A DNA stretch of 64,000 bases. Origin: Mycoplasmoidaceae bacterium (GTDB lineage: Bacteria; Bacillota_I; Bacilli_A; Mycoplasmatales; Mycoplasmoidaceae). Both the position numbers and the translations under genes were made by a program. The notes beneath the pieces were generated by a model. That model was not told the origin of the DNA. It worked only from the letters and a program-made list of their open reading frames with translations, and did no database searches. Location of the stretch: positions 45,907-109,906 of the forward strand of contig JAKSVP010000001.1 in NCBI GenBank assembly GCA_024427265.1, given 5' to 3'. Positions 17,772 to 26,399 of the stretch are shown one piece after another. Within the stretch, counting starts at the first letter, position 1; each line of letters starts with the position of its first letter.

Positions 17772-20012
17772 ATGGATAAAGTTAATTTTAAAGAGTGAGA
17801 AGGATTTAAACCTGGCAAGTGAATGGAAGGCGTAGACACTAGAGATTTCATTCAACAAAACTATGAAGAATATACTGGTGATGAAAAGTTCTTAGTTGGC
17901 CCAACTGATGCAACTAAACATTTATGATCTCAAATCTCTGATCTAATGATGCAAGAAAAGAGAAATGGTGGTGTTTTAGGTGTAGACCCTAGACCAAGTT
18001 TTATTAATGCCTATGGCCCTGGTTACATTAATAAAGACCTAGAACAAATCGTAGGTCTACAAACAGAAAGACCTTTAATTCGTGCTTTTATGCCACGTGG
18101 TGGTATCAAAATGGCAGTACAAGCTTCTGAACAATATGGATTTAAAACTGATCCTGCTGCTGTTGAGTCTTACACTAAACATGCTGTAACACACAACCAA
18201 GCAGTATTTGATTGCTATACAAAAGAAATTATGGATGCAAGACACTGTCACATTTTAACAGGTCTTCCAGATACATATGCTCGTGGTAGAGTAATTGGGG
18301 ACTATAGAAGAATAGCTTTATATGGTGTTGACTATCTTATTAAAGATAGATTAGAACAACAAGCAAATATTAAAGGCGACATGTCTGAAGATAAGATTAG
18401 AGCTAGATATGAAATAACTCAACAAATCAAAGCTCTTAAGGCTTTAAAAGACATGGCACAAGTTTATGGCTGTGATATCGGTAAACCTGCTGCAACAGCA
18501 AAAGAAGCCATCCAATGGACATACTTTGGTTATTTAGCAGCTGTTAAAGATCAAAACGGTGCTGCTATGTCAATTGGACGTAACACAACATTCTTTGATA
18601 TCTACATTCAAAGAGATATGGCTAGAGGTGGTTTAACTGAACAACAAGCTCAAGAAATGATTGACCACTATGTAATGAAGTTAAGAATCATTAAGTTTGC
18701 TAGAATTGCAAGCTACAATGAAATCTTTGGTGGAGATCCAGTTTGAGCAACAGAAACTATTGCTGGTATGAGCAATACTGGTAAGAGTTTAGTAACTAAA
18801 ACATCATATAGAGTACTTCACACTCTAAAGAATATGGGACCAGCTCCAGAACCTAACTTAACAGTTTTATGATCAAAGAAATTACCAGAAAACTTTAAGA
18901 AGTTCTGTATGAAGTATTCTATCTTGTTCTCATCAATTCAATATGAATCTGATGAATTAATGAGACCAATCCATGGTGATGACTATGCTATTGCTTGTTG
19001 TGTCTCTCCTATGGCTATGGGAAAAGAAACTCAACAATTTGGTGCAAGAGCAAACTTAGCAAAAGCTTTGCTTTATGCAATTAATAATGGTAGAGATGAA
19101 TTACATCAAAGTTACAAGATGGGACCAGATTTAGGTGAACTAGATCATAACAAACCATTAGATTTTAACGAAGTTTGAGAACGTTATAAAAAAGTAATGG
19201 ATTGATTAGCAGGACTATATGTTAATGCTTTAAATATCATCCACTACAACCATGATAAGTGGTATTATGAAGCATTAGAATTTGCTTTACATGATGTAAA
19301 TGTTAAGAGATTCTTTGCAACTGGAATTGCAGGATTATCAGTTGTTGCTGATAGTTTATCTGCAATTAAATATGCTAAAGTAACACCTGTTTGAACAAAC
19401 AATATTGCTACTGATTTTAAAATTGAAGGCGAGTTCCCTAAATATGGAAATGATGATAACAAGGTAGACTCAATTGCTCAAGATGTTATTAAATACTTCT
19501 CAGAAGCATTAAGGAAACACCCAGCATATAGAAATGGTGAACACACTATGTCTATTTTAACAATTACATCAAATGTAATGTATGGTGGTGCAACAGGTGC
19601 TACTCCAGATGGTAGAAAAGTTGGACAACCATTTGCTCCAGGTGCTAACCCAATGCACGGAAGAGATTGTTCAGGTGCTGTAGCAAGCTTAGCTTCTGTA
19701 GCTAAATTACCATTTGATTTTGCTCAAGATGGTATTTCTAACACCTTCTCTATTATTCCTGCTGCGTTAGGATATGTAAGAGATGAACAACGTGATAACT
19801 TGGTAACATTACTTGATGGTTACTTTGAAAAAGGTGCGCAACACTTAAATGTAAACGTTTTAATGCGTGAAACATTAATTGATGCACAAAATCACCCAGA
19901 ACTATATCCTCAATTAACAATTAGAGTTTCTGGATATGCTGTTAACTTTGTTAAATTATCTAGAAAACATCAAGACGAAGTTATTGCCAGAACATTCCAC
20001 GAAAGAGTATAG
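17772..20012 (+). CDS. pflB: Formate acetyltransferase (pyruvate formate-lyase)
   Basis: PFL converts pyruvate and CoA to acetyl-CoA and formate using a glycyl radical; it works only without oxygen. The 746-residue product contains the adjacent active-site cysteines in ACCVSPM (C409-C410) and the radical glycine in [10 protein letters not shown] (about G721), both in the expected places, so it is catalytically complete. Substrate-site landmarks such as [10 protein letters not shown] and [18 protein letters not shown] are present. AAGGGG serves as ribosome site, with the ATG at 17772. The stop is immediately followed by the pflA ATG. TGA codons encode several Trp. Confidence 0.96.
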
Positions 20013-20747
20013 ATGTCAGACAAAGCTAAAGTTTTTAAAGTGGAAACTTTTGGTGCTGTAGATGGACCAAGTATTAGACTTGTAATTTTCTTACAAGGCT
20101 GTACTTTTAGATGTAAATATTGTCACAATCCTGAGAGCTGAAAATTAGACTCATTACAAGCTAGAAATTTGACTGTTTCAGACATCTTAAATCTGTATGA
20201 AAATAACAAGACTTTTTATGAAAAAGGTGGCATCACTTTTTCTGGTGGTGAGCCAATGCTCCAAGCTGATTTTATCAAGCTTTTTAGCAAAGAAGCAAAA
20301 GCCAAAAATATTCATATTGCGATAGACACTTCTGGCTGCAATTTTAAACAAAATAAACAAGCATATCAAGATCTTTTAGATCTTGTTGATTTGTGAATTG
20401 TTGATGTTAAAGCATTAGATGAAAAAGAGCATGAATTTATAACTGGTGATAAGACATTAGCTGGTGTTGAATTAATTAAATTTTTAGAAGAAAATCACAA
20501 ACCTTATTGAGTAAGACAAGTTGTGATTAAAACTATTAATGCTGATACTCAACATTTAGATAAATTAATAGACTTTTTAAAACCATTAAAATATTGTCAA
20601 AAAGCAGAATTATTGTCATATCACAACCTTGCTTATGACAAATATAACAAGCTTAAAATAGATTACCCTTTTAAGGATATTCCTATGCTTTCAACCCCTG
20701 AATTTGAGGACATAAAAGCATACCTAAGTAAACATATATGTAAATAA
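20013..20747 (+). CDS. pflA: Pyruvate formate-lyase activating enzyme (radical SAM)
   Basis: A 244-residue radical-SAM enzyme that installs the glycyl radical on PflB. The cluster motif [12 protein letters not shown] places cysteines at 30, 34 and 37 (CxxxCxxC) near the N-terminus, followed by [10 protein letters not shown], the SAM-binding GGE motif, and DTSGC. The N-terminal [15 protein letters not shown] is typical of PFL activases. It begins at the base after the pflB stop, so the two are translationally linked. It needs SAM, which the metK gene in this window can supply, and reduced ferredoxin or flavodoxin, which PFOR could supply. Confidence 0.95.
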
Positions 20748-25800: not shown

Positions 25801-26399
25801 GAGCATATGATATTGGCTTTGGTGGTTTAGACCATGTATTAGCTTCTGGTGAAAATGTAAACATTTTAGTAGTCGACACTGAAGTTTACTCTAACACTGG
25901 TGGTCAAGCATCTAAATCATCTCCAATGGGATCAGTTGCTAAATTTACAGCTGCTGGTAAACCAACAAGAAAGAAAGACCTTGGTGGTATTGCTATGACA
26001 TATAAAGATGTATATGTTGCTCAAGTTGCTCTTGGTGCAGACCAACAACAATTCATTAAGGCTATTACTGAAGCTGAAGCTTACAATGGTGTTTCATTGA
26101 TTATTGCTTATGCTCCATGTATTAACCACGGTTTCAACATGTCTAATTCTCAATTAGAAATGAAAAAAGCCGTTGATGCTGGTTACTGACAACTATATCG
26201 TTACAACCCAACAGCTGAAAAGAAATTCACTCTTGATTCAACTCCAACTCCACAAGGTAGCTATCAAGAATTCTTAAAAGGTGAAGCTAGATATGCTGCA
26301 CTTGTTAAGAAAGCTCCTGAACAAGCCGCAAAATTATTTAAGGGATCTGAAGATAACGCTAAGGAAAAACTGGCTGGTTTAGTTGAATTAAATAAGTAA
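22878..26399 (+). CDS. nifJ: Pyruvate:ferredoxin (flavodoxin) oxidoreductase
   Basis: PFOR oxidises pyruvate and CoA to acetyl-CoA, CO2 and reduced ferredoxin. The 1173-residue single-chain enzyme has all domains: N-terminal pyrimidine-binding domain ([29 protein letters not shown]), transketolase C-like region, gamma domain, a two-cluster ferredoxin domain (C691, C694, C697, C701 and C745, C748, C751, C755), and a TPP-binding domain with [17 protein letters not shown] and the [12 protein letters not shown] loop. Conserved residues appear intact. It is oxygen sensitive. The natural partner is the hydrogenase just upstream. This enzyme is unusual in Mollicutes, which normally use pyruvate dehydrogenase. 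Confidence 0.96.

Follow-up and report, generated by a model that had tools for sequence, protein, structure and literature searches.

How does a mycoplasma come to carry an [FeFe]-hydrogenase, and could the enzyme work in a lineage in which the proteins that mature such enzymes are not detected? The question is raised by a stretch of 64,000 nucleotides on contig JAKSVP010000001.1 of a Mycoplasmoidaceae bacterium (hereafter the window; all window positions are counted from its first letter), which holds in one co-oriented block the genes for pyruvate formate-lyase (PFL; pflB), its radical S-adenosylmethionine (SAM) activating enzyme (pflA), a group B1 [FeFe]-hydrogenase and pyruvate:ferredoxin oxidoreductase (PFOR). 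Mycoplasmas are the usual example of a minimal cell and are generally described with a metabolism based on pyruvate dehydrogenase (PDH) and without a hydrogenase. What is new is a paradox: the motifs that hold the catalytic H-cluster are kept in the 23 of 95 family genomes that encode an [FeFe]-hydrogenase, and none of these shows the set of maturases HydE, HydF and HydG (HydEFG).

When the window is read with genetic code 4 (UGA=Trp), the coordinates of the four genes are exactly those in an earlier note made from the letters alone, and the family models (Table 1) agree with its description of four co-oriented genes with intact catalytic motifs. PflB retains both CCVSPM, with the cysteine pair of the active site, and RVSGYA, the glycyl-radical site; PflA has the radical-SAM motif CTFRCKYC, and the activase gene adjoins pflB, a combination that identifies a pyruvate formate-lyase system. 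The PflA score lies 3% under the TIGR02493 cut-off of 231.75, which the PflA of a close relative, Candidatus Hennigella equi, exceeds with 234 bits; the window protein does pass the broader model TIGR02494 (182.8 vs 174.35). All three H-cluster sequences (TSSCCPAF, GPCAAKKDE and EGMACEGGC) are present in the translated hydrogenase, and PFOR has its full domain set, with the thiamine pyrophosphate domains found by Pfam and two CxxCxxCxxxCP stretches.

Codon use and gene order both indicate that the block belongs to its genome. In-frame TGA codons occur in pflB (8), pflA (3), the hydrogenase gene (2) and the PFOR gene (9), a total of 22; the TGA:TGG ratio is 22:2 in the block and 114:8 in other window genes, and the third-position GC of the four genes is 0.17–0.21 as against 0.19 in 24 other window genes. 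Because the in-frame TGA codons come together with matching third-position GC, we regard the block as native to the genome and not as a recent guest. The closest genome record found is that of Candidatus Hennigella equi (Mycoplasmoidaceae), the horse-gut metagenome-assembled genome (MAG) E4_MB2_29, whose locus L001, compared over 16.3 kb, has its genes in the order of the window: a MAG1210-like gene, LemA, pflB, pflA, hydrogenase, PFOR, PQ-loop genes, TetR, argS and beyond. Such an order shared over 16 kb with an independent MAG shows that the block, flanks included, is no assembly artefact, and it speaks against a chimera; the contamination that the earlier note had named as a possible undoing of its proposal is contradicted by this synteny and by the TGA codons in all four genes. 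The identities between the two loci are 92% for PflB, 72% for PflA, 70% for the hydrogenase, 94% for PFOR and 52% for the first PQ-loop gene after PFOR; going by these values, the window organism and Hennigella equi would be different species. No rRNA was found in the 64-kb window, and it is the use of UGA for Trp together with the Hennigella equi gene order that places the window organism among what we call Hennigella-type Mycoplasmoidaceae.

Evaluation of the pyruvate node across the family used 95 Mycoplasmoidaceae genomes, many of them probably MAGs. PFOR was found in 31 of these and the PDH E1-alpha subunit in 25 (counted at E below 1e-100; 19 of the 25 are also over the curated cut-off), both in none and neither in 39. 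This mutual exclusion bears out the view, put forward in the earlier note, of a Mollicute with an anaerobic pyruvate node. PFOR is present in 20/23 genomes with a hydrogenase (the exceptions being G048, G052 and G054) vs 11/72 of the others, a comparison (Fisher test) uncorrected for shared ancestry and offered as a description. PFL was seen in the window, in L001 and in two further genomes, in G016 as a neighbour of the B1 gene and in G062 as a neighbour of PFOR; these are sightings and not the result of a genome-wide PFL search. In a PFOR tree of 88 rows (the window, 27 of 30 family loci, after three incomplete ones were set aside, and 60 of 120 listed database matches; built with FastTree and drawn from its midpoint, with long branches flagged), one group comprises 51 database rows, few of them named, and the family rows fall outside it, a pattern that fits, as expected, an old gene of the family.

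Taken together, these data lead us to propose that the block constitutes the anaerobic node of pyruvate metabolism in a Hennigella-type gut bacterium, in which PFL, activated by PflA, and PFOR would replace pyruvate dehydrogenase. PDH, whose E1-alpha subunit is absent from the PFOR-bearing relatives, would be absent from the window organism as well, and we infer that PFL and PFOR carry the pyruvate flux. Ferredoxin reduced by PFOR would, judging from the family and active site of the hydrogenase, be reoxidised by that enzyme, which would deliver the electrons to protons, giving H2. The hydrogenase is assigned to group B1 by sequence, and its H2 function is predicted on the same ground.

Two genes elsewhere in the window may be mentioned here. 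A rubrerythrin gene (46996–47580, minus strand) fits an anaerobe coping with oxygen and peroxide, and a DcuC-type carrier is encoded at 1355–3259; in another family genome, PFOR has as its immediate neighbour a relative of the carrier (29% identity; L165:8755–10224).

The active site of the B1 enzyme is strictly kept. An AlphaFold model of residues 1–482 has a predicted local distance difference test score of 88.6, and the best 50 matches listed for it in the PDB are all [FeFe]-hydrogenases, with E-values between 4e-21 and 8e-19 and TM-scores, normalised to the query length, of about 0.6. The N-terminal ferredoxin-like domain carries several [4Fe-4S] sites, with Fer4 domains found and their cysteines among the invariant columns. 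Conservation was counted over 36 non-redundant rows out of 38, comprising the window, 11 family loci and 26 database rows (P0024 omitted), where only P0013, P0016 and P0027 are named Mycoplasmoidaceae and the other database rows were placed by tree. Of 18 H-cluster positions examined, 15, A221 and P222 among them, are invariant, vs 19% of domain columns. The four ligand cysteines of the H-cluster and the neighbouring contact residues are all in place in motifs L1, L2 and L3 (Table 1); by analogy with C299, K358 and M497 of CpI, we take C276 to be the proton relay and K327 and M433 to contact the [2Fe] unit.

Two further features mark the Hennigella-type enzymes. An extra cysteine (C441), two residues after a ligand cysteine in GGC[IV]CG, occurs in 28/80 aligned rows, all of them Hennigella-type, and is absent from the other rows; within the 36 family-type rows the position is kept in 72%. 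The 28 Hennigella-type rows have C-terminal tails of 18–276 residues, rich in P, A, K, E, Q, S and T; many of the tails contain [DN]QPG, and inspection by eye shows T-x-(A/S/T)-E near the end in 13/28. The relatives L002–L022 are merely 478–517 residues long. Going by its composition, the window enzyme's tail is probably disordered; neither tail motif was seen in the other window proteins tested, and that the tail is a tether to a partner is our guess.

A second class of hydrogenase accompanies the first. Among the 23 hydrogenase genomes, 11 encode a B1-type enzyme (so called by similarity), 20 a group A HydA-like one and 8 both, and in ten of the 20 the group A gene stands in a HydC-HydB-HydA row. 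With 847.5 bits, the HydA of Hennigella exceeds the cut-off (765) of the model for NADH-dependent group A6 enzymes. Its row, HydC-HydB-HydA-ferredoxin (Hennigella equi L164:5959–10340), is that of a bifurcating-type hydrogenase in a mycoplasma and ends with a 2[4Fe-4S] ferredoxin gene following hydA (L164:10164–10340); no HydABC was seen in the 64-kb window. All 20 group A enzymes retain the cysteines of L2 and L3 (18 by pattern, two by reading), including those of G036 and G048, in which L3 reads NGC instead of GGC.

Despite this conservation, none of the 95 family genomes shows a normal HydEFG set. HydG, which makes the CO and cyanide of the cofactor, matches in 0/95 even at E 0.001; HydE is over its cut-off of 254.6 in 0/95, with weak matches in 9/95 (best 27.8 bits), and HydF over its cut-off of 325.6 in 0/95, with weak matches in 95/95 (best 106 bits). 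We read the weak HydE and HydF matches as other proteins, the listed HydF ones being confined to the GTPase domain that makes up the model's first half, as general GTPases would be. All 11 B1-type genomes are among those without HydE or HydF over cut-off or any HydG. As a positive control, one of 14 named genomes, presumably that of Thermotoga maritima, passes the cut-offs for each of HydE, HydF and HydG, and HydG passes in 16/198 genomes drawn from the class.

We also evaluated 26 control genomes with related hydrogenases (L002–L024, L026, L028 and L029, out of 67 loci; L025, L027, L030, L031 and the weak loci L032–L067 were omitted, and L001 is the family's own). Their hydrogenases count as related by similarity, at 36–54% identity to the window enzyme. 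HydG and HydE pass in the same 12/26 and HydF in 13/26, the additional genome (G110) having HydF and a partial HydE under cut-off. In the remaining 13/26 no maturase is over its cut-off; they include several MAGs of Oscillospiraceae and Erysipelotrichaceae and one complete genome, that of Breznakiella homolactica. The combination of a hydrogenase with no HydEFG is therefore not confined to Mycoplasmoidaceae. On a quick tree, maturase presence changes at least 3 times.

If other enzymes build the cofactor, there are few candidates. Seven hydrogenase genomes contain 40 radical-SAM genes in total, 4–7 per genome, and the list of alternative cofactor makers is therefore short. Of these genes, 39/40 are closest to MiaB, MtaB, RlmN, HemW, NrdG or PflA (references named by NCBIfam), and the remaining one encodes a 273-aa protein found in G036 alone (L220, G036:C3). 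No spare radical-SAM enzyme that might supply CO and cyanide in place of HydG is common to the seven genomes, in a search that covered radical-SAM genes only.

Does the hydrogenase then work? The likeliest reading, to which we give about even chances, is that it is active, with a [2Fe] cofactor obtained by a route that does not use HydEFG of the cell's own. Activity is argued for because two hydrogenase classes keep their motifs, and against because the maturases are missing; the H2 production predicted in the earlier note is plausible, but it was put too strongly in view of the 0/95 counts for relatives. Several other observations weigh against activity or against the pathway as a whole. We know of no organism for which assembly of the H-cluster by its own means and without HydEFG has been demonstrated. 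That maturases are absent is a reading from relatives and not from the window organism's own genome, and the maturase search did not extend to the genomes from which the database rows used to count conservation come. S223 of the hydrogenase is kept in just 72% of the 36 rows. A search of window frames under 140 aa for ferredoxins with CxxCxxCxxxC found none, the sole match being a 20-residue frame that we take as chance. Of the 20 group A enzymes, 10 have both L1 cysteines (C-C), and the 10 HydABC-type HydA proteins have serine for the second (C-S). We do not count C-S as a loss because the HydA1 chain of PDB 7q4v, which we take to be the active enzyme of Acetobacterium woodii, reads the same letters (TSCSPGW), and the idea of a lost ligand was dropped, remaining as a caveat. 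Finally, hydrogenases found without maturases, the Rhodospirillum rubrum enzyme for one, are reported to have been held probably inactive or differently employed (PMC4967309).

A more specific form of the active-enzyme reading is that an undescribed route to the H-cluster without HydE, HydF or HydG operates in gut Mycoplasmoidaceae and in 13/26 other genomes, in the family without a dedicated radical-SAM enzyme. We put this forward tentatively and consider it unlikely as a whole; if true, the same HydEFG-free route could explain the hydrogenases of maturase-less protists.

The alternative that survives best, which we would call possible if somewhat unlikely, is that the family hydrogenases have lost the [2Fe] unit and, with the [4Fe-4S] cluster alone, relay electrons, store them in the manner of a ferredoxin or act as sensors. 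It would account for the want of HydG matches and of HydE and HydF over cut-off in 95/95 genomes and for the lack of a spare radical-SAM enzyme in the seven inventories, and the extra cysteine of the Hennigella-type clade, so close to a ligand, could alter the cluster; a similar view of the R. rubrum enzyme is reported (PMC4967309). However, the positions to which we assign [2Fe] contact and proton delivery are invariant in all 36 rows, and the motifs are kept in group A as well; relaxed selection would be expected to erode them.

It is also conceivable that maturases exist and were missed, either too divergent for the models or always outside the metagenome bins, since the 95 genomes probably include many MAGs, of unshown completeness, and the window organism's own genome lay outside the search. 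We judge this improbable. The HydG model that finds nothing in the family at E 0.001 passes in the class, control and named genomes (16/198, 12/26 and 1/14); three genes would have to be overlooked in each of 23 hydrogenase genomes, some with contigs of 0.26–0.51 Mb; and the radical-SAM inventory leaves a single unassigned gene in 1/7 genomes.

To an external supply of the cofactor or of maturation, by neighbouring bacteria or a HydEFG-bearing protist host, we likewise give little credence. Mycoplasmas are dependent organisms, but to our knowledge there is no uptake route for an externally supplied H-cluster cofactor. No host is known for the window organism, and Breznakiella homolactica, with a complete genome and no HydEFG over cut-offs, would need the same explanation. 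In favour of external supply, the relative Candidatus Mycoplasma girerdii is reported to be associated with Trichomonas vaginalis (PMC5476646), and added cofactor can mature hydrogenases semi-synthetically, as reported in PMC12578642 and in the title of PDB 4xdc. Contamination or recent import from a clostridium, at which the taxonomy of the nearest named outside relatives of the hydrogenase might hint, is extremely improbable against the in-frame TGA codons, the matching third-position GC, the synteny in another MAG and the spread of PFOR in the family.

The origin of the block is a separate matter from its present use. Outside the family, the named proteins closest to the hydrogenase come from Clostridia and Erysipelotrichaceae (50–54% identity), and database rows P0024 and P0028–P0037 are 55–65% identical to it. 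A quick B1 tree (78/80 rows) favoured separate origins of the B1 gene within the family. In an approximately unbiased test on 36/80 rows, a single family B1 clade (23 rows, five of them unnamed database rows) was not rejected (p 0.39); without the long-branched G016 the value was borderline (p 0.046). The earlier note had suggested transfer followed by recoding, which as a recent event is not upheld, as PFOR occurs in 31/95 relatives, codon use in the block matches the window and a single B1 origin is not rejected. The data support a pyruvate and hydrogenase system inherited within the family and not lately imported; an old exchange with Clostridia-like bacteria is possible.

Terminator-like sites are more frequent in the region than in shuffled sequence (9 found vs 4.2), and strong hairpins lie between the hydrogenase gene and PFOR (22776–22847; Table 1), which would let PFOR be transcribed separately. 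Two units are probable, pflB-pflA-hydrogenase and PFOR. Matches to the promoter consensus did not exceed those in shuffles (36 vs 38) and were not used. Beyond PFOR, four PQ-loop-type (SemiSWEET-like) membrane genes surround a TetR-type regulator (26421–29718), two of the three scanned being recognised by Pfam; the group stays next to PFOR in Hennigella equi. Further on, the window encodes a BspA-type leucine-rich repeat protein (58985–60454), which proves no host.

Table 1. Features of the pyruvate and hydrogenase block, in window coordinates.
Feature	Coordinates	Strand	Basis or remark
pflB, pyruvate formate-lyase, 746 aa	17772..20012	+	TIGR01255, 1088 bits (cut-off 994)
pflA, PFL-activating radical-SAM enzyme, 244 aa	20013..20747	+	directly after pflB; TIGR02493, 225.3 bits
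Group B1 [FeFe]-hydrogenase, 655 aa	20805..22772	+	TIGR04105 (FeFe_hydrog_B1), 523.5 bits (cut-off 450)
H-cluster motif L1, TSSCCP, residues 273-278	21621..21638	+	C276 and C277 invariant in 36 rows; P278 97%
H-cluster motif L2, GPCAAKKDE, residues 322-330	21768..21794	+	P323, C324, K327, K328 and E330 invariant
H-cluster motif L3, EGMACEGGCIC, residues 431-441	22095..22127	+	E431, M433, C435, G437, G438 and C439 invariant
C-terminal hydrogenase tail, 168 residues, P/A/K/E/Q/S/T-rich, with NQPGL and, near the end, VTISE	22266..22769	+	composition
Perfect 14-bp hairpin, then terminator-like hairpin with T-rich tail	22776..22807, then 22823..22847	+	fold z-score -4.5; terminator scan
PFOR (nifJ type), pyruvate:ferredoxin oxidoreductase, 1173 aa	22878..26399	+	TIGR02176, 1643.5 bits (cut-off 911)
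Terminator-like hairpin after PFOR, 12 pairs, then T-rich tail	26403..26430	+	terminator scan

Database protein names include Mycoplasmoidaceae hydrogenases (P0013, P0016 and P0027), but we found no open paper that names both hydrogenase and Mycoplasmoidaceae, nor, in the open literature, a family-wide hydrogenase without maturases in a minimal bacterium. If the enzymes are active they would represent a second solution for H-cluster assembly, and if they are inactive some other function is needed to explain why their sites are so strictly kept.

Among known systems, one close in metabolism is Candidatus Mycoplasma girerdii, a mycoplasma reported with PFL, its activase and PFOR and without PDH; ferredoxins were reported there and a hydrogenase gene was not found (PMC5476646). 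The window shares this pyruvate node and differs in having a B1 hydrogenase between pflA and PFOR. Of the metabolism described in the earlier note, PFL with PFOR and without PDH had already been published in that account; the hydrogenase had not been found there. The Hennigella equi MAG itself has been described (PMC8957277), in a main text in which the word "hydrogenase" does not appear. An [FeFe]-hydrogenase together with PFOR is also reported for the Tenericutes RF39 and RFN20 (PMC7301438), gut relatives in the wider group that belong to lineages other than Mycoplasmoidaceae.

For the enzyme itself, close counterparts are the group B [FeFe]-hydrogenases of gut bacteria; Bacteroides enzymes of this group, expressed from three species, are reported to have produced H2 once matured semi-synthetically (PMC12578642). 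The window enzyme, assigned to the same group, differs from these in its extra cysteine after the last ligand, its long low-complexity tail, its UGA code and its relatives without HydEFG.

Giardia has an [FeFe]-hydrogenase without the full maturase set. Maturases are likewise reported to be partly or wholly absent beside the hydrogenase in Rhodospirillum rubrum, Entamoeba, Mastigamoeba and Monocercomonoides (PMC4967309). Compared with R. rubrum and the protists, the pattern in Mycoplasmoidaceae spans a bacterial family and two hydrogenase classes with the H-cluster motifs kept, and with it the old puzzle of the maturase-less hydrogenase becomes testable in small genomes.

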